From assembly GCA_023246135.1 (NCBI GenBank), contig JAHFJB010000002.1, positions 1-11,851 on the forward strand: DNA of 11,851 nucleotides, written 5' to 3'. Made by a program: the position numbers and the translations under genes. Under the pieces are notes generated by a model, which did not search any database, was not told the DNA's origin, and saw only the letters and a program-made list of their open reading frames with translations. The stretch is from Candidatus Parcubacteria bacterium (GTDB taxonomy: Bacteria > Patescibacteriota > Patescibacteriia > UBA1558 > GWA2-36-10). Shown one piece after another: positions 1,743 through 11,851 of the stretch (the stretch's first letter is position 1; each line of letters begins with the position of its first letter).

Positions 1743-3257
1743 TTAATCAATTTTTTTCTTTTCTGTTACCCAAAAACCTAGATATTTGCCGATCATTAGT
1801 CGTGTCTGGCCGTCTATGGCTGGTATAGATCCAAAAATAATCATAGTGACTGGAAATATAAACCATTGAAATAGCATTAGCCCGTAGGCAAAAATTCGGT
1901 TGTAAAACTTTTTGTTAAATTTTTGTGGCAGAGGCGGTAGAATAACCACACTCATAATAGCAATTAAGAATATGCCTATCAGACCAAAACGCATTAAAGC
2001 TTCTAACATAAGTGGCGTATTTTGGGCAATGACACTGGAAAGATTTTGTTTTTCAGCTAGCCACAAGGGCAAACGGCCCATGATCAGGACTATGATAGGC
2101 GCTGTGGCCCAAGTATAGACGCCCTCAGTTTGATTCCAAGTATAAATCCATTTTTTACTGGTGGGAATTTTTTTGTTGTTGTGAAAATGCCAGACCATAT
2201 ATGGGAAATGCTCTACGCCCCAAGCCCAGCGGCGCATTTGCCTATATTGGTTTTTGAGGCTGCGCCACAAGTTGCCAACATAGACAGTATTCATGGAAAC
2301 CGGTATATGCATAGGCTCAACTTTGTAGTCGCCGTCATAACGCAAAAAGCACTGCAGAAATATGCGTGAGTCTTCGGTGACTATATTGTTTTGCCAAAAG
2401 CCGATATCAACCAAGGCTTGCCAACTCATACTGTGTGAAGAAAAAGTAAAGAGCCTATCAGGCCGAGCCAAGTCGGTCAAGAGCCAAAAAGTGGTGGAGT
2501 TAGCCACAACGCGGGTGATAATATCTGATTCCCAGACATTGTTGTGATAGAAAGCCATAGGCTGGAAGCTGACTCGATAAGGATTGGGATGGCTTAAAAA
2601 GCGATTGGTCAAATAGGCAAAATAATCTGGATGAGAAATAGTATCAATATCAAAAGTGGAGACAATGATTTTTTTGTAATCAAGGCCAATGGCGTCAATA
2701 TATTTTTTAGCTTCATAGCCAGCATGATATAGATTGGATCCTTTGCCTTTAACTTCGCCGACTAGGTCATCAGGATGGATAGTCACTAATATCTTGTAAA
2801 AGGTATTTGGATACTTGGCGAGTATTTGGTCAGCTACTTTTTGAAAATGTTCTTGGTAGCGCCCTTCGCCCGCTAAGACCAAAATCATTTTTTTCTGGTC
2901 ATATTTGGCGTGAGCCAAATTGGAAAAAGTCGTGTCCACTACTTCTAGCGGTTCGCCGGCTGTTGGTAAAAAAATTATGTGATAATAATCAGGCCAATTG
3001 GGCTGGTGATTTTTTAAATACTCATACCAATCAATTTTAGATGCCCGACGATACTGGCACCATGACATAATCAAAAAAATCAGCATGTAAGTGAGTCGCA
3101 ATACAAAGTAGATGTCATAAATTATGATAAAATAAATGCCAGCCAGAGGGCTGATAAATGACAGAGTGATGGCTATCAAAAATGTTAACCAAACCAAAGC
3201 TCCAGGCAAGATTTCTAGAAAACGATAATAGTAGTAATTTTTTTGTTCGGTTGTCAT
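1743..3257 (-). CDS. Membrane-bound family 2 glycosyltransferase, processive type
   Basis: The protein should transfer sugars from an activated donor at the cytoplasmic face of the membrane. Two hydrophobic segments lie at about 15-65. The GT-A catalytic domain runs from about 90 to 345 and has the motifs of cellulose-synthase-like enzymes: a first Asp region (about 163-164), the metal-binding D203-I-D205, the catalytic-base region T294-E-D296, and Q340-M-R-R-W344, which matches QxxRW. About three more membrane segments follow (about 380-400, 418-442 and 456-480). The QxxRW motif and the membrane topology point to polysaccharide or glycolipid synthesis, but donor and product cannot be read from the sequence. 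A promoter lies just upstream (3313-3341), and the S41 peptidase gene follows after 3 nt, so the pair probably forms a cell-envelope operon with the partial gene beyond. Confidence 0.88.
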   Translation of the reverse strand: MTTEQKNYYYYRFLEILPGALVWLTFLIAITLSFISPLAGIYFIIIYDIYFVLRLTYMLIFLIMSWCQYRRASKIDWYEYLKNHQPNWPDYYHIIFLPTAGEPLEVVDTTFSNLAHAKYDQKKMILVLAGEGRYQEHFQKVADQILAKYPNTFYKILVTIHPDDLVGEVKGKGSNLYHAGYEAKKYIDAIGLDYKKIIVSTFDIDTISHPDYFAYLTNRFLSHPNPYRVSFQPMAFYHNNVWESDIITRVVANSTTFWLLTDLARPDRLFTFSSHSMSWQALVDIGFWQNNIVTEDSRIFLQCFLRYDGDYKVEPMHIPVSMNTVYVGNLWRSLKNQYRQMRRWAWGVEHFPYMVWHFHNNKKIPTSKKWIYTWNQTEGVYTWATAPIIVLIMGRLPLWLAEKQNLSSVIAQNTPLMLEALMRFGLIGIFLIAIMSVVILPPLPQKFNKKFYNRIFAYGLMLFQWFIFPVTMIIFGSIPAIDGQTRLMIGKYLGFWVTEKKKID

Positions 3258-3312
3258 TTTTTGGCTAATATTAGGTAAATTGTCTATATCTAAAGCATTT
3301 TAGAGTAGATAT

Positions 3313-3341
3313 AATTTAGCAGAAAACAGGCTTTTTTTCAA
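3313..3341 (-). promoter_or_regulatory. Probable sigma-70-type promoter for the glycosyltransferase/peptidase genes
   Basis: On the minus strand TTGAAA (3336-3341) is followed after exactly 17 nt by TAAATT (3313-3318). The -35 box matches consensus at 5 of 6 positions and the -10 box at 4 of 6. It lies in the only sizeable gap between the MTH1-like gene and the glycosyltransferase gene, about 56 nt before the latter's ATG. I see no convincing terminator in this gap, so read-through from the alaS operon is also possible. Confidence 0.5.
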
Positions 3342-3797
3342 CTATAGTTCTTTTAAATCGTATTCCACTATTTTATCATGTTTATCCCATATAAAATGAC
3401 CATTGAATTTTTTGTCATTTAAAAGTAAGGGCCACCAATGAATATCGCTGACCCACATTTTATTATATGGCATTTTATCTATGCTAAACCATTCTGGTCG
3501 CATTTCTTCACTCTCCTCTATTTCACCAGAAAAATCAGTGGTCTTAAATATATGTACCTCAAAGATATCTTTTTTTCCGGTCCAAGAAAAATTTAATACA
3601 CCAAGTTCTACTAAATTTTTTACAGTTAAGCCACACTCTTCAAAAATTTCACGCTCGGCTGTTTCTTCAATGGTTTCTCCTTTTTCTACTTTACCGCCAA
3701 AACCATTGTAACGGCCAATGCCCATTCCTTGTTTTTTGTAACCCAAAAGGACTTCGTCATCTTTTATTAGATAAGCTAAAGTCATTAGTTGCTTCAT
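3342..3797 (-). CDS. MTH1 (NUDT1)-type Nudix hydrolase, probable oxidised-purine nucleoside triphosphatase
   Basis: The enzyme is expected to hydrolyse damaged purine nucleoside triphosphates such as 8-oxo-dGTP to monophosphates, keeping them out of DNA. The Nudix box is intact: G35, E41, R49-E50, E53-E54 and G56. The similarity to human MTH1, recalled from memory, runs over the whole chain. GRYNGFGGKVEKGETIE (29-45) matches GRWNGFGGKVQEGETIE, EMRPEWF (98-104) matches EMRPCWF, and the C-terminus ending in YDLKEL resembles the MTH1 end. Asn31 corresponds to the base-binding Asn33, Trp115 to Trp117 and Asp118 to Asp120, but Ser117 replaces Asp119. The length (151) is close to MTH1 (156). Start ATG 3797 is preceded by a weak AGAAG. 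It is the last gene of the alaS-secA cluster, 62 nt after another Nudix gene. Confidence 0.85.
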   Translation of the reverse strand: MKQLMTLAYLIKDDEVLLGYKKQGMGIGRYNGFGGKVEKGETIEETAEREIFEECGLTVKNLVELGVLNFSWTGKKDIFEVHIFKTTDFSGEIEESEEMRPEWFSIDKMPYNKMWVSDIHWWPLLLNDKKFNGHFIWDKHDKIVEYDLKEL

Positions 3798-3859
3798 ATT
3801 TCTTCTAAGGGATAAATATCAATTGCTGGCTCCTCATAAGGTGTATCGTTTTGACAAAT

Positions 3860-4285
3860 TTAGACATTTATTAAATTTTTATCTAATAATTCTTTAAAAT
3901 AAATATCAATGTCATCACGCTTTTTTATTTCTTCAATAGTCTGCCAATTATAATCATCATGTTCCACCGGATCTAAGTGTATTTCACCAGCCACTTCGCC
4001 AATGTAAGTTAGGCGGACAACATGCCGGCCGGCAATTCTCAAAATATCCTGAGCACCAACCAGTCTAGGTTCACCTACTAGATCCAAATCAGTTTCTTCT
4101 TTAATTTCTCTTCGGAGATTATCCATGAGCGTATCGCCGGGGTTGATGCGACCACCAACAATATCCCAGCGTGTCTTGGTGACTTCTGGGTATTTCTCCA
4201 AAGAGCGGCGGATAAGTAAATACTTACCTTCCTTGTTTCTCAAAAGGGCTTTGACCCCGACTTGTAGAGTTAAAGTTTTTTCCAT
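3860..4285 (-). CDS. Nudix hydrolase, substrate unknown
   Basis: A single-domain Nudix protein of 141 residues that should cleave a nucleoside diphosphate linked to another moiety. The Nudix box spans about 45-67. G45 is followed by D51 where Glu is usual, then R59-E60, and E63-E64 are kept as metal ligands. The final Gly of the box is replaced by D66. The strand GVKALLRNKEGKYLLIRRS (10-28) is a typical Nudix beginning. The start is 4 nt after the cupin stop, so the two genes are probably coupled. After the TAA stop the same frame stays open for 21 more codons and closes at a TGA that overlaps the ATG of the next Nudix gene. This may be a remnant of a longer C-terminus. The substrate cannot be deduced. 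Confidence 0.85.
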   Translation of the reverse strand: MEKTLTLQVGVKALLRNKEGKYLLIRRSLEKYPEVTKTRWDIVGGRINPGDTLMDNLRREIKEETDLDLVGEPRLVGAQDILRIAGRHVVRLTYIGEVAGEIHLDPVEHDDYNWQTIEEIKKRDDIDIYFKELLDKNLINV

Positions 4286-4289
4286 GATT

Positions 4290-4685
4290 TTATTTTACAC
4301 CGTGTCCAAACTCTTCGTCCTCGTCATCGGCTTGAGCATCAGCCGGAGTTTTATGAATGCGACCGTCAATATGATTGGCTGGAGCATAAATAGTATAGAC
4401 TTTTAGCACTTCTGTACCAGTGTTGATAAAATTGTGGGCAGTGCCTGGAGTAACTACAACTATATCGCCGGCATTAACCGTTGATTCTTGGCCATTTAGT
4501 ACAGCCTTGGCTGTGCCAGACATAAAAAATAAGGCTTGCTCTACATTGTCGTGAGTTTCTAGGCCGATTTCCTCGCCCGGTTTAATATCCATAAGCACCA
4601 GCTGACTTTTTTTGCCAGTAAACAGAACGGTACGAAAATTGGTGTTGTTTTTGGTACTTTCTAAAATGTTTGTTTGGTATGACAT
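4290..4685 (-). CDS. Small single-domain cupin protein
   Basis: The 131-residue protein has the two cupin motifs on one beta-barrel. Motif 1 is near PGEEIGLETHDNVEQ (36-50), with His45, Glu49 and Gln50 but Glu43 in place of the usual first His. Motif 2 is GDIVVVTPGTAHNFIN (73-88), with His84. The metal site is therefore partly altered, and the protein could be an enzyme or a small-molecule-binding protein. The tail (about 110-131) is strongly acidic (DDEDEEF). It lies 24 nt after secA and 4 nt before a Nudix gene, so it is probably expressed with both. No specific reaction can be named; cupins of this size have very diverse roles. Confidence 0.8.
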   Translation of the reverse strand: MSYQTNILESTKNNTNFRTVLFTGKKSQLVLMDIKPGEEIGLETHDNVEQALFFMSGTAKAVLNGQESTVNAGDIVVVTPGTAHNFINTGTEVLKVYTIYAPANHIDGRIHKTPADAQADDEDEEFGHGVK

Positions 4686-4709: not shown

Positions 4710-7466
4710 TTACGCCCCATGGCACTTCTTATATTTTTTACCACTACCACAATAACACAAATCATTGCGACCAATCTTATGGCCGGCTTGGTCAGTTGGT
4801 TTGGACGGCAAAATTTGAGATTTATCTCTATCCTCTACTTCTTTTTGAAAGGGCTTAAAACCGGCTTTTTGCTCAGCAAAATGCTTTTGATCTTGAGCCG
4901 TAGGCTGTTTGGCTACGCCCGTGCTCCTAGATAAGCTGATTTTGTATATAGAGTAGACTATTTGCTTGCGGATGGAATCTAGAAGATTATTAAATAAGCC
5001 GTAGGATTCTCGCTTGTATTCTACCAGTGGATCACGCTGGCCATAGCCCTGCAGGCCAATACCCGTACGCAATTTGTCCATGGCAGTTAGATGCTCTACC
5101 CACAAAGTATCAATGCTTTTGAGAACTATAGCGCGTTCAATTAACTCCATAGGCTTCCAGGTCGGATCAGGCAGATCAACATTGGTGTTTATTTCTTCAG
5201 TCAGAGCCAAGTATCTGGTTTTGGCTAGGTTACTAAGATGCTCAATAATTTTGTCGCGGACATCATGAGAATTTCTAGATTGGGCATCTTTTAGAAGTTC
5301 GGTGACAGCGTCTTCTTCGCTAGGATTTATAGGAAAAATTGATTTAATAGTTTCAATTATTTCTTTGGGGCTAAAATCACCATGATTTTTTTCCGCCAAA
5401 GTATGGAAAGAAACAACGTTCTCAATTTCTTCATAAATATAATCCAAAACGATGTCTTGTGAGGTTTTTTCGGCCATTTTGTCTTTGTCGGAGAATATCT
5501 CTAGGAGATTCTGTCGAGTGCGATAGACGACTTGACGGTGCTTATTAATAACATCATCATATTCTACCAAATGTTTGCGGATATCAAAGTTGTGGCCTTC
5601 AACTTTTTTCTGGGCCGATTCAATAGAGTTTGATATCATCTTGTTTTCAATGACCACATCTTCTGGTATGCCCAATTTTTCCATAATGGCTTTGAGTCGG
5701 TCCGAACCAAAGATGCGCATCAAGTCATCTTCCATGGAAATATAAAACTGTGATGAACCAGCATCGCCCTGACGGCCGGCTCGGCCTCGGAGTTGATTAT
5801 CAATGCGTCTAGATTCATGGCGCTCTGTTCCTAAGACATGTAAACCGCCTAAGGACTTTATTTCTTCATGCAATGTTTTATCAAAGGGCGAACCGCCTAA
5901 GATAATATCCACACCACGGCCGGCCATATTGGTAGCTACAGTGACAGCGCCACGGCGTCCGGCTTGGGCAATGATTTCCGCTTCCTTTTCATGGAATTTG
6001 GCATTTAGAAGTTGATGCGGCACGCCGGCTTTGTTTAGGTATTCACTCAATTCTTCATTTTTTTCAATGGAAATAGTACCGACCAAAACTGGTTGGCCTT
6101 TTTTGTGAAGCTCATCTATTTCTTTGACAATGGCGCGCAATTTGCCACGGCGAGTTTTGTAAATGCGGTCCTTGAGGTCAGCTCGGACAAAAGCTTTGTT
6201 AGTAGGAATAACGGTCACATCTAAGCTATAGATTTTAGCCATTTCCTCGGCTTCAGTAGCAGCGGTACCGGTCATACCAGATAATTTTTTGTACATTCTA
6301 AAATAATTCTGGAAAGTAATAGTTGCCAGAGTCATGCTTTCGCGTTGGACTTCTACACCTTCTTTGGCTTCAATGGCTTGGTGTAGGCCCTCGCTATAGC
6401 GGCGGCCAGGCATCATCCGGCCAGTAAATTCGTCAATGATCATAACTTCATTGTCTTTGACCACGTAATCTCTGTCTTTGAGGTATAGTGTCTTAGCACG
6501 CAGAGCTTGCTCTAAATGATGGACAGTCTCAATACCATGGCTCTCATAGATATTATCTACGCCAAGGGCTTTTTCCATTTTCTGTATACCCTCTTCAGTC
6601 AGGGTGCAGGCTCTCATTTTCTCGTCAATATTGTAGTCAGTATTTTCTACCAATCCTTGAACCAATTGGGAAAATTGTATATATTTGCTGGTAGACTCCT
6701 CTGCGGCTGAGGAAATAATCAGCGGCGTTCTGGCTTCATCAATTAAAATACTATCCACTTCATCAACAATGGCATAGTGCAGTCCACGCTGAACTTGCTG
6801 TTTGAAGTCTTGAACCATATTATCTCGGAGATAGTCAAAACCAAATTCGTTGTTAGTGCCATAAGTGATGTCAGCTTGGTAGGCTTCTTGACGGGTAACT
6901 GGCTTTAAATAATCCATCACCACTTTGACACCTTGATCGCGGGCCTTATCTTCGTCACTAGAGGTATGGGTCGGATCATAAACAAAAGAAGCATCGTGTT
7001 GTATAGTGCCAACACTTAGTCCTAAGAAATTGTAAATTTGTCCCATCCAAACAGCATCACGTTTGGCTAGATAATCGTTGACAGTGACTACATGCACGCC
7101 TTTACCCTCTAAGGCATTAAGATAAATGGGTAAGGTAGAAGTCAAAGTTTTGCCTTCACCGGTTTTCATTTCAGCAATTTGGCCGTGATGTAGCACAATG
7201 CCGCCCATGAGCTGAACATCAAAATGGCGTTGATTCAAAGTGCGCTTAGCTGCTTCTCTAATTAAACCAAAAGCTGGTGCCAAGACATCATCTAGATTCT
7301 TGCCAGCTTGGACCTCAGCCTTAAGTGCTAAACTTTTATCTTTCAAAGCTGTATCAGAAAGTTTTTCCAAATCAGACTCTAGTGTATTGATTTGTTCAAC
7401 TAGAGGCTTTAAGCTATCGACATATTTCTGGTTAGCATCACCAAAGATTTTCTGTAATATTCCCAT
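4710..7466 (-). CDS. secA: SecA, preprotein translocase ATPase
   Basis: SecA is the motor that drives unfolded preproteins through SecYEG. Visible features in order: N-terminal helix (MGILQKIFGD), Walker A TGEGKT at 102-107, the conserved TYGTNNEFGFDYLRDNM (201-217), Walker B with DEVDS (235-239), the motif DEARTPLII, the second nucleotide-binding domain with ATNMAGRGVDI and QLRGRAGRQGD, and the helical scaffold and wing regions. At the C-terminus a zinc-binding tail reads CYCGSGKKYKKCH. The length (918) is normal for a full SecA. Between about 155 and 192 it carries roughly 30 residues more than the E. coli protein as I recall it. Start ATG 7466 has no Shine-Dalgarno. The gene follows hpf by 21 nt, an order also seen in Firmicutes. 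Confidence 0.98.
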   Translation of the reverse strand: MGILQKIFGDANQKYVDSLKPLVEQINTLESDLEKLSDTALKDKSLALKAEVQAGKNLDDVLAPAFGLIREAAKRTLNQRHFDVQLMGGIVLHHGQIAEMKTGEGKTLTSTLPIYLNALEGKGVHVVTVNDYLAKRDAVWMGQIYNFLGLSVGTIQHDASFVYDPTHTSSDEDKARDQGVKVVMDYLKPVTRQEAYQADITYGTNNEFGFDYLRDNMVQDFKQQVQRGLHYAIVDEVDSILIDEARTPLIISSAAEESTSKYIQFSQLVQGLVENTDYNIDEKMRACTLTEEGIQKMEKALGVDNIYESHGIETVHHLEQALRAKTLYLKDRDYVVKDNEVMIIDEFTGRMMPGRRYSEGLHQAIEAKEGVEVQRESMTLATITFQNYFRMYKKLSGMTGTAATEAEEMAKIYSLDVTVIPTNKAFVRADLKDRIYKTRRGKLRAIVKEIDELHKKGQPVLVGTISIEKNEELSEYLNKAGVPHQLLNAKFHEKEAEIIAQAGRRGAVTVATNMAGRGVDIILGGSPFDKTLHEEIKSLGGLHVLGTERHESRRIDNQLRGRAGRQGDAGSSQFYISMEDDLMRIFGSDRLKAIMEKLGIPEDVVIENKMISNSIESAQKKVEGHNFDIRKHLVEYDDVINKHRQVVYRTRQNLLEIFSDKDKMAEKTSQDIVLDYIYEEIENVVSFHTLAEKNHGDFSPKEIIETIKSIFPINPSEEDAVTELLKDAQSRNSHDVRDKIIEHLSNLAKTRYLALTEEINTNVDLPDPTWKPMELIERAIVLKSIDTLWVEHLTAMDKLRTGIGLQGYGQRDPLVEYKRESYGLFNNLLDSIRKQIVYSIYKISLSRSTGVAKQPTAQDQKHFAEQKAGFKPFQKEVEDRDKSQILPSKPTDQAGHKIGRNDLCYCGSGKKYKKCHGA

Positions 7467-7868: not shown

Positions 7869-9617
7869 TTATTTTTCTAAAATAGCTTTTATGCGGCGGA
7901 CGCCAGCTGATGAGGATTCTTCTTTGCTTATTTTGAAGTGTCCTAATTCACTAGTATTATCAACGTGTGGACCACCGCAAATCTCTTTAGAGAAATCACC
8001 CATAGTATAAACCCTTACCTTTTCTCCATATTTATGCTCAAAAGAGCCTAAAGCGCCATATTTTTTGGCTTCAGCCAAGGTCATTTCCTGCCAAGTGACT
8101 GGCAGTTTTTTATCAATTTGCTCATTGACTATGTCTTCTGCTAGTTTGATCTGCTCAGGTGTTAATTTGTCTGGATAAGCAAAATCAAAGCGAATTCGTT
8201 CTTCATTGATATTACTGCCCTTTTGCTCTACGCCATCGCCCAAGACCATTCTTAAGGCTTGGAGCATCAAATGGGCAGCCGTATGGTGTCTTTTGGTGTT
8301 ATCTTTGTCATCAGCTAGACCGCCCTTAAACATGCCGGCTGAAGCTGTGCGAGATAGGTCTTGATGTTTTTGAAATTCAGCTTGGTATTTTTCTTTACTT
8401 AAATTAAGTCCGGCTTCTTGGGCTAGTTCCAAGGTTATTTCTAAAGGAAATCCATAACTAGTATATAGATCAAAGGCGGTTTTTTCATTCAATTTTTTAG
8501 AAGCAACAAGTTTTTCAAATTGTTTCAAACCTTTACTTAGGGTATTTCTAAATTTATTTTCTTCTTTGATTAATTCTTCCAAAATAAATTTTTCATTTTT
8601 TTCTAATTCAGGATAATCAGTTTTATAATCTTTAATAATTACTTCAGCCAACTGGCTAGTAAAATTTTGCTCTAAGCCCAGAGCTTTGCCAAAGCGAATG
8701 GCCCGTCTGATAATACGGCGCAAAACATAGCCCTGATCTTTGTTGGATGGTGTAATGCCCTTACGATCACCTGACATAAACACGGCAGTTCTGATATGAT
8801 CAGCTATAATGCGAAAAGATTTTTTATCAGTTTCATATTTTTTACCTGATAGTTTTTCAATGGCTTTGATAATCGGCTGAAACAATTCAGTTAAATAATT
8901 ATCATCATAGCCATTGAGGACTGCTAGGGTTCTTTCCAAACCCATACCGGTATCGATGTTTTTTTGTTTTAAAGACTCAAATTGTCCAGTGGCAGTTTTG
9001 TTGTATTGCATTAAGACATCATTCCAAATCTCTACCCATTGATTGTCTTCTGGGTCAAACTTGGCTGGAGCCGCGGCATTACCAGTCCAATAAAACATTT
9101 CCGTATCTGGTCCACACGGCCCAGTGGTGCCAGCTGGTCCCCACCAATTGTCAGTTATTTTGGCAATGCGTTCTGGTTTAACGCCAAGAGCTAGCCAATA
9201 TTTTTCTGATTGGGCATCATAATCTGGTAAATTTTCATTGCCGCCAAAAATGCTAACAGCAATTTTTTCTTTATCTAATCTTAAAATTTTTGTTAAGAAT
9301 TCCCAGGAATATTCAATGGCTTCTTTTTTAAAATAGTTTCCCAAAGACCAGTTTCCCAACATCTCAAAAAAAGTATGATGGACATTATCCCCCACCTCAT
9401 CGATATCGCTAGTCCTGACGCATTTTTGCACACTGACCAGCCTTTGACCATGGGGATGCTTTTCGCCCAGTAGATATGGCACCAAGGGATGCATGCCGGC
9501 TGTAGTAAACAAGACAGTTGGGTCATTGTCTGGAATCAAAGATGCGGCTGATATCAGCTCGTGTCCTTGGCTTTGAAAATATTGAAAAAATTTGTTTTTT
9601 AAATCTTTAGCTGTCAT
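7869..9617 (-). CDS. alaS: Alanyl-tRNA synthetase, short form lacking the linker barrel and C-Ala domain
   Basis: The enzyme attaches alanine to tRNA-Ala. Class II signatures are visible: motif 2 around VQKCVRTSDIDEV and HHTFFEMLGNWS (63-91), and motif 3 around GMGLERTL (224-231). The tRNA-recognition helical region follows (about 260-420). An editing domain with H445-TAA-H449 and C547-GGP-H551 ends the protein at 582. E. coli AlaRS has about 876 residues. Missing here are the beta-barrel between catalytic and editing domains (which carries a YxESGGQxGD-type motif) and the whole C-terminal C-Ala domain. The chain passes from GMFKGGLADD (428-437) almost directly into RHHTAAHL. The end looks natural (RRIKAILEK then TAA). 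It is the first gene of the operon, with a near-perfect promoter at 9665-9693 and a leader of about 40 nt without Shine-Dalgarno. Confidence 0.96.
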   Translation of the reverse strand: MTAKDLKNKFFQYFQSQGHELISAASLIPDNDPTVLFTTAGMHPLVPYLLGEKHPHGQRLVSVQKCVRTSDIDEVGDNVHHTFFEMLGNWSLGNYFKKEAIEYSWEFLTKILRLDKEKIAVSIFGGNENLPDYDAQSEKYWLALGVKPERIAKITDNWWGPAGTTGPCGPDTEMFYWTGNAAAPAKFDPEDNQWVEIWNDVLMQYNKTATGQFESLKQKNIDTGMGLERTLAVLNGYDDNYLTELFQPIIKAIEKLSGKKYETDKKSFRIIADHIRTAVFMSGDRKGITPSNKDQGYVLRRIIRRAIRFGKALGLEQNFTSQLAEVIIKDYKTDYPELEKNEKFILEELIKEENKFRNTLSKGLKQFEKLVASKKLNEKTAFDLYTSYGFPLEITLELAQEAGLNLSKEKYQAEFQKHQDLSRTASAGMFKGGLADDKDNTKRHHTAAHLMLQALRMVLGDGVEQKGSNINEERIRFDFAYPDKLTPEQIKLAEDIVNEQIDKKLPVTWQEMTLAEAKKYGALGSFEHKYGEKVRVYTMGDFSKEICGGPHVDNTSELGHFKISKEESSSAGVRRIKAILEK

Positions 9618-9626
9618 GGCTTTTAG

Positions 9627-9655
9627 CTTAAAAAACCATTATTTAAGCAATGGTT
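9627..9655 (-). promoter_or_regulatory. Possible pseudoknot/attenuator in the alaS leader
   Basis: In the minus-strand leader AACCATT (9655-9649) pairs with AATGGTT (9640-9634), followed by TTTT, which resembles a weak intrinsic terminator. The 8-nt loop GCTTAAAT contains GCTTAAA, complementary to TTTAAGC (9633-9627) just downstream. The two 7-bp pairings could coexist as an H-type pseudoknot or exclude one another. The element ends about 9 nt before the alaS ATG. A regulatory role is inferred from position only. Confidence 0.4.
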
Positions 9656-9664
9656 ATCCCCTCA

Positions 9665-9693
9665 ATTATACGAAATTTGGGCTAAATAGTCAA
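9665..9693 (-). promoter_or_regulatory. Strong sigma-70-type promoter of the alaS operon
   Basis: On the minus strand TTGACT (9688-9693) is followed after 17 nt by TATAAT (9665-9670). The boxes match 5/6 and 6/6 with ideal spacing. The expected transcript start is near 9658, giving a leader of about 40 nt. It is back to back with the plus-strand promoter at 9703-9732, with 9 bp between the two -35 boxes. Confidence 0.85.
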
Positions 9694-9702
9694 TATTTTG
9701 AT

Positions 9703-9732
9703 TTGACAAAAATCAGGCATATTTGCTATATT
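9703..9732 (+). promoter_or_regulatory. Strong promoter of the orphan small gene, with extended -10
   Basis: TTGACA (9703-9708) matches consensus perfectly. After 18 nt comes TATATT (9727-9732, 5/6), preceded by TGC, which gives a TGn extended -10. The expected transcript start is near 9739. The orientation fits the gene at 9801-10121 with its Shine-Dalgarno and terminator. Confidence 0.85.
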
Positions 9733-9741
9733 TTGGGCGAC

Positions 9742-9767
9742 AGCAGGGCTTGCCAGCTCTGGCTGCT
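9742..9767 (+). promoter_or_regulatory. Stem-loop at the 5' end of the orphan gene's mRNA
   Basis: GCCA (9752-9755) and TGGC (9760-9763) enclose a 4-nt loop. AGCA (9742-9745) can pair with TGCT (9764-9767) outside a 6-nt bulge. The hairpin would sit almost at the transcript's 5' end, about 20 nt before the Shine-Dalgarno. It may protect the mRNA or tune translation. The stems are short, so this is a suggestion only. Confidence 0.3.
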
Positions 9768-9786
9768 ATGGGGGACAAAAGGTTCA

Positions 9787-9792
9787 AGGAGG
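9787..9792 (+). promoter_or_regulatory. Full Shine-Dalgarno AGGAGG of the orphan gene
   Basis: AGGAGG lies 8 nt before ATG 9801 and decides this start over in-frame upstream candidates such as ATG 9768, which has no ribosome binding site. It is the only complete Shine-Dalgarno I find before any gene in the window. Confidence 0.85.
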
Positions 9793-9800
9793 ACCTCAGG

Positions 9801-10121
9801 ATGAAGCTTCTTATCATTGGTGAAGACGAGGCCAACTATGGCCACATCTGCCTCAGGCTTCCTGGTCATCAACTCACTTTCTGTGATACGGTGGCCACGG
9901 CTCTTGTGGTAGAAACTCCTCTCGTTTCCTTCGATCGTGTTTTCGTCATAGTCGAAGGCAATTTCCGTGAATCTGTCCGTGTTCTTTCCGAGCATTTCAG
10001 TCGCCTCGACCTCTTACACCACTACTATGAGAACGTGAGTTTTCTTCCTCGTTCTCCGATGTATTGGCCAATAGAGGTCAACAAGTCAGTAGCTGGACGG
10101 GCTACAATGCGAAAGATTTAG
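9801..10121 (+). CDS. Orphan 106-residue protein, possibly receiver-like fold, function unknown
   Basis: The protein begins MKLLIIGEDEANYG and ends with VAGRATMRKI. I recognise no family. The pattern hydrophobic strand (2-6), acidic residues (GEDE), helix, strand (HQLTF), helix, strand (DRVFVIVEG) and helix (RESVRVLSEHF) resembles a small alpha/beta fold such as a degenerate response-regulator receiver, but this is only a guess from the order of elements. It has no signal peptide or membrane segment. It is the only plus-strand gene here and has its own near-perfect promoter, AGGAGG and a strong terminator. Codons differ from its neighbours: Leu is mostly CTT/CTC and Arg mostly CGT/CGC. Base composition is also higher in GC (34 of 60 in 9841-9900, against 22 of 60 in 9181-9240 within alaS). 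Recent transfer or very high expression are both possible. Confidence 0.75.
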   Translation: MKLLIIGEDEANYGHICLRLPGHQLTFCDTVATALVVETPLVSFDRVFVIVEGNFRESVRVLSEHFSRLDLLHHYYENVSFLPRSPMYWPIEVNKSVAGRATMRKI

Positions 10122-10134
10122 GAATCAGGGGCGC

Positions 10135-10181
10135 CTGCCTCGAGTCACATGGTCCGCGGGACCGACTCGAGGCAGTTTTTT
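10135..10181 (+). terminator. Strong rho-independent terminator of the orphan gene
   Basis: CTGCCTCGAGTC (10135-10146) pairs perfectly over 12 bp with GACTCGAGGCAG (10164-10175). Inside, GGTCC (10151-10155) and GGACC (10159-10163) add 5 bp around a GCG loop, with ACAT as a one-sided bulge. TTTTTT (10176-10181) follows directly. It starts 13 nt after the stop codon. Confidence 0.93.
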
Positions 10182-10184
10182 GTT

Positions 10185-10445
10185 TTATTAAAAAAAGCGA
10201 AACCGGTTGACTCAATAGCCAACCGGTGTTGCAAATTTGTGGAGGTGGGTCGTCCCCCGCTACCGCTGTTCCGCTTGAGACTCGTGCTCCTGTGCAAGTC
10301 TCTCTTGATCTATGTCCACTTTAGGACAACCCACCTCTCTAATATTGATAGGGCCGAAACCAAGCGTCCACCCACTCGCCAGTGTTGGATTTTCACGCCC
10401 GGATCGGCCCCCATCATTTGCAAAGGCAAGAACCGTAGTTACTAA
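10185..10445 (-). ncRNA. Candidate structured non-coding RNA, no known family recognised
   Basis: This stretch of about 250 nt has a promoter (10449-10477), a terminator (10190-10227) and no convincing frame on its strand. Its ends pair: ATTTGCAA at 10229-10236 with its complement at 10416-10423 (8 bp). Inside are two arms. Arm A closes with 7 bp (10351-10357 with 10404-10410), then 4 bp (10364-10367 with 10395-10398) and a CACT/AGTG hairpin (10373-10384). Arm B closes with 14 bp (10242-10255 with 10324-10337), where the one non-Watson-Crick position is G-U if the minus strand is the RNA but C-A if the plus strand is. Inside arm B is a hairpin with 6 bp plus 3 bp around a 2-nt bulge (10277-10302). 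It lacks the signatures I know for RNase P, tmRNA and SRP RNA. Confidence 0.65.
10190..10227 (-). terminator. Probable terminator of the candidate ncRNA
   Basis: ACCGGTTG (10220-10227 on the minus strand) pairs perfectly over 8 bp with CAACCGGT (10209-10202) around a 10-nt loop. On the minus strand TTCGC separates the stem from a run of seven T (10196-10190). The U-tract is 5 nt from the stem, which is slightly far, so it may be weaker than its plus-strand partner. Confidence 0.65.
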
Positions 10446-10448
10446 TAT

Positions 10449-10477
10449 ATACTAAAACAAGCTTGACAGTTCGTCAA
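10449..10477 (-). promoter_or_regulatory. Probable promoter of the candidate ncRNA
   Basis: On the minus strand TTGACG (10472-10477, 5/6) is followed after 17 nt by TAGTAT (10449-10454, 4/6). The -35 box overlaps the TGA stop of the TIM-barrel gene. The expected start of transcription is near 10442, shortly before the self-complementary region begins. The AT-rich TATATA next to the -10 leaves the exact box uncertain. Confidence 0.5.
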
Positions 10478-11145
10478 TCGGCCAATAATTTTTCTATATA
10501 TTCTTTAGCAGCTAATTGCTGGCTTATATTATTTATGAGTTCTAGAGCCATGATTGGAGCTAGATATTTTTTGTATTTAAGCAGGTAATCAAAATCACTC
10601 AAGTCACTATAAAAATGTTCACAATATTCGCCCTTGAGATTGACTTGGTTTTTTACAGCGCTGATATGCCCACAGCCAATATGCACTTGATCCACTAGTC
10701 CCATAGTATGATCGTATAAGTTATGTTCAACCAATCTATTGTTTTCCAAATGAGAAAAGTCTAAACAAAGCCCGGCAAATTCATTAATTTCTTCTATAGT
10801 CAAAGGTAAGGTAGTATTTTCTACGTATATTAAATTTTTATATTTGTTTAAGTCGTGTTGAAGCGGAAATTCTCTCAAACTATGAATATTAAATAATTTG
10901 GTTTTATAATTTTTTATAAAATATTCCATTTCTTCTAGAGTGACATCTGAACCTAAGTGTATAAAAGGAATAGATTTTACGGAGGTTTTTTTTAGAAGTT
11001 CATAAAGCTCAGGCCGCTTGTCAGCTTTAAGGCCAGTCAAAAAAAGGCAAACTTCAGTTAATTTTAAATCAGTCACTTCTTGAATTTTGAATTGCCAGGC
11101 TGCTCCCCAAGTAGTAGTGATGGTTGGCAATATTTTTATATTCAT
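10474..11145 (-). CDS. Endonuclease IV/xylose-isomerase-like TIM-barrel protein, function unknown
   Basis: The strand ends carry polar residues in the order typical of the xylose-isomerase-like (AP endonuclease 2) superfamily: His63 (IPFIHLG), His88 (FNIHSL), Glu109 (IYVENT), Asp129 and His132 (LDFSH), His155 (QVHIGCGH) and Glu202 (MALELI). The D-x-x-H pair and these Glu residues correspond to metal ligands of endonuclease IV (E145, D179, H182, H216, E261, from memory). The D-x-H pair that completes the third metal site there is not obvious here. At 223 residues it is shorter than endonuclease IV (about 280). It could be an isomerase, epimerase or hydrolase acting on a sugar or nucleic acid. 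It starts 18 nt after the upstream gene's stop, so both are probably in one operon. No Shine-Dalgarno is present. Confidence 0.65.
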   Translation of the reverse strand: MNIKILPTITTTWGAAWQFKIQEVTDLKLTEVCLFLTGLKADKRPELYELLKKTSVKSIPFIHLGSDVTLEEMEYFIKNYKTKLFNIHSLREFPLQHDLNKYKNLIYVENTTLPLTIEEINEFAGLCLDFSHLENNRLVEHNLYDHTMGLVDQVHIGCGHISAVKNQVNLKGEYCEHFYSDLSDFDYLLKYKKYLAPIMALELINNISQQLAAKEYIEKLLAD

Positions 11146-11163: not shown

Positions 11164-11851
11164 CTATTTAACCATTTTTATTGTCCCGTCTTTAGTATAG
11201 ACTGTCACATACGTAAAATTGGCAGAATTAAAATCATCAGGGTTAGATGATTCATAAGATAATTCCACTGTAATACAAGTTGGGCAAATATCAGTATTTA
11301 TATTGGTGATAGTTAGATTATAACCCCTATTATTGACATATTCATCACTGTTTAGAACATATTTTTTTGCTAATTGGGTAGCTTTGTCAACCTCATTGCC
11401 CTGGCTAATGGTAGTGTTTTGACTATCAAGTATTTTTTCTTGATTAGATCCAGAGCTGCTGCTTGGGCAAGATTCTTCCCAAGTTCTTAGGCATTTATTC
11501 TTAGATTCGCACCAGCTATACCCAGCGGCTATAAGGCAATTATGCTCATCTTTTTGACCACCGATAAGCTCCGGAGAAAAACTACATTGTATTCTTAGAT
11601 CAAAAGTCTTAGGGTTTGGTACTTCGCCTAAAGACGATCCTTCCCAAGTCAAACAGACAATGTTGTCTTTTCTATAGCCGGCAGTACTGCCGACCTTATC
11701 AGCAAAAATATTAAAAGGGTCACTGCTAAAATTTTGTTTCTCTAAAAAACTTTTGATTTTGTCCAGATGCCGGCCAGATAATTGGATAGCGTCAATGTTA
11801 TAACCAATAAGCTCAATCTGCCCATCAACACTTTTGCCCTTACTGCTGTAC
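11164..11851 (-). CDS. Cysteine-containing, probably exported protein, C-terminal 228 residues
   Basis: The frame is open from the right window edge to TAG at 11164-11166, so the N-terminus is outside. A TTG at 11652 is internal, since coding continues upstream (RKDNIVCLTWEG). Three parts can be seen. The first contains IELIGYNIDAI and ends near VCLTWEG. The second is a compact cysteine motif: C, then AAGYSWC, then NKCL, then W-E-E-x-C, probably two disulfides. The third, after a Ser-rich linker, is an alpha/beta part with CPTC and ends in VTVYTKDGTIKMVK. From memory, the cysteine motif recurs in exported or lipoproteins of patescibacteria and archaea. Paired cysteines and a low-complexity linker fit a location outside the cytoplasm. 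The function is unknown. Confidence 0.7.
   Translation of the reverse strand, partial: YSSKGKSVDGQIELIGYNIDAIQLSGRHLDKIKSFLEKQNFSSDPFNIFADKVGSTAGYRKDNIVCLTWEGSSLGEVPNPKTFDLRIQCSFSPELIGGQKDEHNCLIAAGYSWCESKNKCLRTWEESCPSSSSGSNQEKILDSQNTTISQGNEVDKATQLAKKYVLNSDEYVNNRGYNLTITNINTDICPTCITVELSYESSNPDDFNSANFTYVTVYTKDGTIKMVK

Follow-up and report, generated by a model that had tools for sequence, protein, structure and literature searches.

PMC6429828 describes raised G+C against an AT-rich background as a mark of genes for structured non-coding RNAs. The orphan ncRNA candidates from searches of GC-rich intergenic regions (GC-IGR) presented there resemble the locus studied here in several ways, being long GC-rich intergenic blocks of AT-rich small genomes with a stable predicted fold and no known family. 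Units of the type reported here differ from the candidates presented there in having their own promoter and terminator instead of being leaders, and in recurring at alaS across a family of CPR bacteria, mostly without being alignable between genera. 6S RNA (RF00013) is likewise free-standing and similar in size to the RNA described below, but it is a single long hairpin with a central bubble, whereas a three-way junction with two large hairpins is predicted for the latter. In E. coli, alaS autoregulates at a palindrome in its promoter. A recurrent spacer motif is also present in the alaS promoter of the family relatives considered here, whereas the RNA unit lies upstream of that promoter and is separate from it.

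In this work we analysed a window (the whole stretch of 11,851 nucleotides) from a Candidatus Parcubacteria genome. The novel finding, obtained by prediction from sequence, is that this site upstream of alaS frequently holds an autonomous structured RNA in genomes of the same family; in a limited look at open-access titles and abstract openings, no account of such RNAs in CPR bacteria was found. As for the block of the window in which this RNA is encoded, the reading that we favour, with a confidence a little above even, is that it holds two independent lineage-specific genes that share only their site, one for a trans-acting, protein-bound structured RNA and the other for an unrelated small protein.

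Composition and neighbours of the block

The block at 9740-10440 has a G+C content of 0.512 (51%), against 0.387 (39%) in the rest of the window. The initial annotation had described it as a GC-rich island flanked by AT-rich sequence, and its counts were reproduced exactly, with 34 of 60 G+C at 10201-10260 and 22 of 60 both at 9181-9240 and at 10501-10560. The source genome is a draft of 592 kb, 65% complete, and the G+C of the block is reached by 2.6% of 1,914 overlapping 700-bp windows from it, drawn from 20 sampled contigs (at least one with a run of N) together with the rest of the window. Further GC-rich stretches occur in the same genome (L059, about 3245-3710, 3735-4480 and 6965-7207), none with an Rfam match and at least two beginning with a TTGACA-type promoter.

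The block sits between alaS (7869-9617, minus strand; 582 aa), which served as synteny anchor and has matches in 27 of 28 genomes, mostly full length, and a gene of 223 aa (10474-11145, minus strand) without a significant family in profile searches. The alaS promoter found by the promoter scan, TTGACT-17-TATAAT (9665-9693, minus strand), stands back to back with that of the orphan small-protein gene. Beyond the 223-aa gene lies a lipoprotein-like gene (11164-11850, minus strand), which by eye resembles the gene found between two alaS-upstream RNA units in G003 and G014; it carries a YSWCESK-type Cys motif. Within the block, two complete convergent units, each with a promoter and a terminator, had been proposed, and both are present, their transcription being predicted. 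Neither product had been assigned to a known family, and neither was matched in the protein, RNA and covariance-model collections searched. Promoter-like sites found by the scan number five (1.5 +/- 1.3 in shuffles) and terminators one (0.8 +/- 0.8 in shuffles), a count that omits the plus-strand terminator at 10135-10181, whose loop is longer than the scan permits.

The predicted structured RNA gene

The predicted structured RNA, of about 250 nt, occupies 10190-10442 on the minus strand, its start being placed from the -10 box. The promoter, TTGACG-17-TAGTAT (10449-10477, minus strand), is weak, with 9 of 12 matches, and its -35 element overlaps the stop codon of the upstream 223-aa gene; an intrinsic terminator was located by the terminator scan at 10202-10227 on the same strand. 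The predicted fold has an energy of -104 kcal/mol and a z score of -5.62, none of 200 shuffles being equally stable, and it consists of a closing helix (10416-10423 with 10229-10236), hairpin 1 (10347-10415) and hairpin 2 (10242-10337), joined in a three-way junction. Pair probabilities in the long stem of hairpin 2 are at least 0.96; in places within hairpin 1 the pairing is less certain.

A scan of the whole window against 4227 Rfam families gave no match to the RNA at gathering score, and when the block was searched at E values up to 10, four matches were obtained, with E of 4-8, all far below gathering score and none of them to 6S RNA. Membership in a known RNA family was therefore rejected, with Rfam empty at gathering score and nothing near it at E 10. 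The comparison of the block with related genomes by BLASTN, which the initial annotation had recommended, left the RNA unmatched in 52 other genomes, and a covariance model built on it (R1), run with stricter filters across the genomes of the class, matched 1 of 285 genomes, namely the window's own, and none of the 284 others.

Predicted structured RNAs upstream of alaS in related genomes

By eye, many genomes of the family show upstream of alaS, on the alaS strand, a sigma-70-type promoter, then a stretch with a long closing stem that is GC-rich in most cases, and then a terminator; 16 of these RNAs, chosen by eye, have predicted folds with z from -3.3 to -7.7. For an automatic screen, a unit was defined as a promoter, a non-coding transcript with fold z <= -3 and a terminator, lying no more than 1.5 kb upstream of alaS. 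Those 1.5 kb were present in 18 of 21 family genomes, G015 (95 bases) having been dropped and G009 and G018 standing outside the 18 with short weak alaS matches only. Autonomous structured non-coding units were found in 9 of the 18 genomes, including that of the window, whose RNA has all the elements of the definition. The same screen gave 0 of 18 downstream of alaS, and 8 of 576 on 1.5-kb tiles from five family genomes, one of these 8 tiles being itself an alaS-upstream site. The resulting Fisher values are 2e-11 against 7 of 575 tiles and 5e-4 against the downstream regions. Because most tiles are coding, the enrichment was recounted on gaps of at least 400 bases, and units were present in 9 of 13 alaS-upstream gaps versus 6 of 148 others (Fisher 2e-8), or in 8 of 12 when the window was left out (Fisher 1e-7), three gaps having been excluded beforehand (two upstream of alaS and one downstream gap of L138, a coarse cut). 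Among the units listed by the screen, 19 of 20 are on the alaS strand, the exception being that of G012.

The screens use promoter and terminator rules of our own definition, which miss the candidate seen by eye in G006 (promoter rule) and terminators with long loops, and their z values, each based on 20-60 shuffles, differ from run to run. The G016 RNA was dropped on account of an ORF covering more than 60% of its length, though its fold z is -5.7 to -9.0. Since this RNA fails the ORF rule and the G006 candidate fails the promoter rule, the value of 9 of 18 may be conservative. In 5 of the 18 genomes (G001, G007, G008, G011 and G017), other genes lie directly before alaS and no unit was counted. 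By these predictions, the region before alaS is a hot spot, across the family, for structured RNAs with promoters and terminators of their own. An Rfam scan of 15 alaS loci returned one tRNA and nothing else.

Relatedness of the alaS-upstream RNAs

Judged by sequence and predicted pairing, RNAs from the same genus are clearly related. Six directed comparisons were made, covering three sister pairs, and each kept more base pairs than any of 60 shuffles (from G002 to G013, for instance, 63 of 105 pairs were kept against 29.4 +/- 8.4 in shuffles), and the identity of same-genus RNAs, 0.44-0.62, also exceeded all 60 shuffles. The alaS identity is 0.70 for G002 and G013 and 0.83 for G003 and G014; the RNAs of the former pair are alignable, whereas those of the window and G002, whose alaS identity is 0.73, are not clearly so. 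Compensatory changes were dropped as evidence for conserved structure, given that both-side pair changes in the sister pairs were at shuffle level when the structure was taken from one sequence and the second was shuffled. Counts of both-side changes based on a consensus (11, 2 and 5 in the sister pairs) do not discriminate either, because pairs from different genera gave as many, with 20 for the window and G019b and 13 for G004b and G016a.

One link across genera is likely from these comparisons, that of the G010 RNA with the G003/G014 RNA. From G010a to G003b, 28 of 41 pairs were kept, a level that none of 60 shuffles reached, and from G010a to G014b 1 of 60 did so; a covariance model made from G003 and G014 (R3) found, besides its parents, the first of the RNAs upstream of alaS in G010, with 22 bits and E about 1e-5. 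Applied to whole genomes, R3 gave short or weak matches in G003 (C7), G018, G010 (C8), G022, G031 and G025, the alaS site of G010 not being listed. The covariance model R2, from a sister genus, matched only its two parents among 34 genomes, and in 18 loci its other matches were weak, the best, at a terminator end, having an E of 0.018. Beyond the one likely link, homology of these RNAs across the whole family is not supported by R2 or R3.

The window RNA itself was unmatched by R2 and R3, both being models from sister genera. When its pairs were traced in the RNAs of eight relatives, 31-35 of 78 were kept with five two-hairpin RNAs, as many as in 3-24 of 60 shuffles. Hints that are weak at best came from the two-hairpin RNAs of G002, G013, G004 and G016, with 3-15 of 60 shuffles as good; G019, G003, G010 and G006 gave no hint, and with three RNAs the values fell below the shuffled means. 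Common descent of the window RNA with other alaS-upstream RNAs is supported neither by sequence nor by covariance models. Either sequence change in these RNAs is very rapid or new RNAs are repeatedly gained at the site, and a site at which RNA sequences turn over between genera offers a test case for the rate at which a non-coding gene becomes unrecognizable or is replaced.

The predicted orphan small-protein gene

The second unit of the block starts on the plus strand with the promoter TTGACA-18-TATATT (9703-9732; 11 of 12 matches), which has a TG before the second hexamer. It continues with a Shine-Dalgarno (SD) sequence, AGGAGG (9787-9792, plus strand), located 8 nt before the ATG, and with the 106-aa ORF P0001 (9801-10121, plus strand; ATG at 9801, stop at 10121), and it is closed by an intrinsic terminator (10135-10181, plus strand; -29.7 kcal/mol) formed by a perfect 12-bp stem, an inner 5-bp stem and T6. 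An ORF of at least 106 aa on either strand was obtained in 18 of 500 shuffles, so that length alone is weak evidence. The codon composition is gene-like (GC1/2/3 0.59/0.36/0.49), and the in-frame codon score is the highest of the three plus-strand frames. Because two antisense frames score higher, the case for coding rests mainly on the nested order of promoter, SD, ATG, stop and terminator, which as a sequence argument for a gene is stronger than ORF length.

The homologue search that had been recommended for the 106-residue protein left P0001 without relatives in the collections searched. Nothing above chance was obtained in Pfam, NCBIfam, PHROGs or PDB sequences; outside its own genome, a search of 52 related genomes at E 0.01 found no match, and the same holds for the 35 same-order genomes among them at E 0.5, for 84,980 species in a peptide-seeded search, and for viral contigs and phages. 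The single-sequence AlphaFold model has a mean pLDDT of 37.6, too low to use. The strand pattern of P0001 and of P0002, an orphan ORF of G016, resembles that of response-regulator receiver domains, the likeness being seen by eye in the N-terminal strand (KLLIIG in P0001, KVVVAG in P0002), but hhalign against a five-sequence receiver alignment gave probabilities of 0.3% and 0.1% and Pfam gave no match. With no profile match and no support from hhalign, the identification of P0001 as a receiver domain was dropped.

Autonomous small genes are found elsewhere in the family. In 400 kb of G016, 10 small-ORF units (L036-L053) each have their own promoter, SD and terminator, and 9 of the 10 have a G+C of 0.48-0.61 in a genome of 0.36; the sole match elsewhere in the compared DNA for any of them is that of a 70-aa protein, in G019. 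There are five such genes in 200 kb of G006, four in 120 kb of G010 and none in 80 kb of G012, and outside the family G027 and G040 have four each in 140 kb, near genome composition. None was counted in 111 kb of the window's own genome, where the gene of the window is missed by the terminator rule. The predicted gene of P0001 fits a class of GC-rich, autonomous, orphan small genes found in several family genomes. The 70-aa protein is 40% identical between the two same-genus genomes (L049, 1442-1654, minus strand; L101, 4432-4641), its gene lying upstream of alaS by about 5 kb in L049 and by 1.2 kb in L101. An autonomous 82-aa ORF of G006 (L123, 16490-16738, minus strand) shares 46% identity with a match in the genome of the window (L069, 2736-2509).

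Proposed role of the RNA and alternative explanations

We hypothesize that the window encodes a free-standing structured non-coding RNA of about 250 nt, which would be transcribed toward alaS and end at a terminator of its own, at the alaS-upstream position where genomes of this CPR family appear to carry such RNAs repeatedly. It may act in trans, bound by a protein as a scaffold or decoy, and not by pairing with messages. This mode of action is suggested because nearly all bases are helical in the predicted fold, and protein binding is preferred because exposed SD or anti-SD loops are no more than weakly over-represented. The small-protein gene, with what would be its own promoter, a strong ribosome-binding site and a terminator, is probably not functionally tied to the RNA. 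Points against this reading include that no model links the window RNA to other genomes, that the RNA promoter has 9 of 12 matches, and that autonomous small ORFs also occur outside the family and were counted neither in 80 kb of G012 nor in 111 kb of the window's own genome. More tentatively, and at a low level of confidence, the upstream flank of alaS may be an old RNA locus that has stayed in position, with a product that kept its architecture and role and was almost free to vary in sequence. The product would then be a regulatory RNA that binds protein, possibly RNA polymerase or AlaRS itself, and that either stands in for the 6S RNA, which was not detected, or couples growth to the capacity for translation. 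The recurrence beside one synthetase gene yields a defined set of RNAs for expression and pull-down.

That the RNA upstream of alaS in the family is a housekeeping RNA in diverged form, whether 6S-like or of another universal type, is doubtful. A length of about 250 nt, an own promoter and terminator and a recurrent position would suit such an RNA, and the 6S covariance model matched 0 of 19 genomes of the order, in a search of limited reach whose control matched only 5 of 14 genomes. Nevertheless, the predicted architectures vary from genus to genus, pairs of adjacent RNAs of this kind are present upstream of alaS in several genomes, RNase P RNA and tmRNA of the window's genome are located elsewhere than in the block, and neither the Rfam scan at gathering score nor the predicted three-way junction favours it. 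6S RNA as such was rejected, the RF00013 model having no match to the window RNA at gathering score, nor in the block at E up to 10, and the predicted fold being a closing helix with two hairpins.

The suggestion of the initial annotation that both genes belong to a cassette that is mobile or was gained recently is doubtful in equal measure. The compositional contrast of the block and the lack of homologues in relatives would agree with it, as would the fact that inspection by eye of the sequence before alaS in relatives showed neither the 223-aa gene nor the block; yet no direct or inverted repeats bound the block, and at this site the relatives have RNA units of their own, each with a promoter and a terminator. 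No copies of the block were found in its own genome (draft, 65% complete) or in phages, plasmids or viral contigs, one of the latter searches having used a single exact 22-base string. The composition of the block does not require horizontal gain, because high G+C marks structured RNA genes according to PMC6429828. With the repeat, phage, plasmid and viral-contig searches all empty, the cassette was not retained.

It is improbable that the RNA is a base-pairing regulatory sRNA that would present exposed AGGAG or CCUCC loops to ribosome-binding sites or to the 16S tail. In its predicted fold the window RNA does expose an AGGAG in an apical loop, and CCUCC is open in G003b, G004b and G019b, but in 28 RNAs the motifs are barely above shuffles (CCTCC 14 against 10.0 +/- 3.0, AGGAG 10 against 6.3 +/- 2.5, CTCCT 14 against 8.1 +/- 2.8). 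Loops with SD or anti-SD motifs, weakly over-represented as they are, were rejected as the basis of function.

It had also been suggested that the two products may work together, and a single system of RNA and orphan protein, either an RNP or a pair resembling a toxin-antitoxin, is quite improbable. The genes are adjacent and convergent, and antisense orphan ORFs lie between the RNA and alaS in the window's genome (G000), in G016 (P0002) and, by eye, in G002; against this, six genomes with the RNA (G003, G004, G010, G013, G014 and G019) have no such orphan there, by eye. The co-occurrence of protein and RNA is thus not that of a strict pair, with three genomes on one side and six on the other. 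P0001 and P0002 share only a low-scoring match of 20 residues, and P0002 had no match in 19 genomes, G016 not being among them. Pairing of the RNA with the orphan message was rejected, the predicted duplex (-138, against -143 +/- 8 for shuffles) being no better than shuffles. The locus also differs from type III toxin-antitoxin systems in that its units are convergent and in that the block has no tandem repeats of the kind seen in type III antitoxin RNA.

The last alternative, a GC-rich spacer with a spurious promoter and hairpins, would account for the weak RNA promoter, the terminator count near expectation and an ORF length reached in shuffles, but it is highly improbable given the fold stability (z -5.6, 0 of 200 shuffles) and the repeated presence of similar units at the orthologous site.

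Other observations at alaS loci

Two RNAs flank a lipoprotein-like gene both in L006 (408-580 and 1225-1412) and in L014 (245-492 and 1215-1412). By eye, in both genomes one RNA has AGGAGGC and the other GCCUCCU, a complementarity of seven bases by which they could pair. Directly before alaS of G013 there is a tRNA-like gene (L010, 3462-3536, minus strand), called as tRNA-Cys with the unusual anticodon ACA; between it and the terminator lies a further structured stretch. An alaS promoter of the form TTGACT(A/T)TT is seen by eye at the equivalent place in 13 of 18 family genomes, and several of these promoters have a possible operator in the spacer, a GGCC- or GCCC-like motif with AAATTT after it. 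In the window the alaS promoter and leader occupy 9618-9693 (minus strand). In G000, G016, G019, G020 and G012, the alaS leader shows by eye a small hairpin and then a T run before the start codon, an arrangement that resembles an attenuator.
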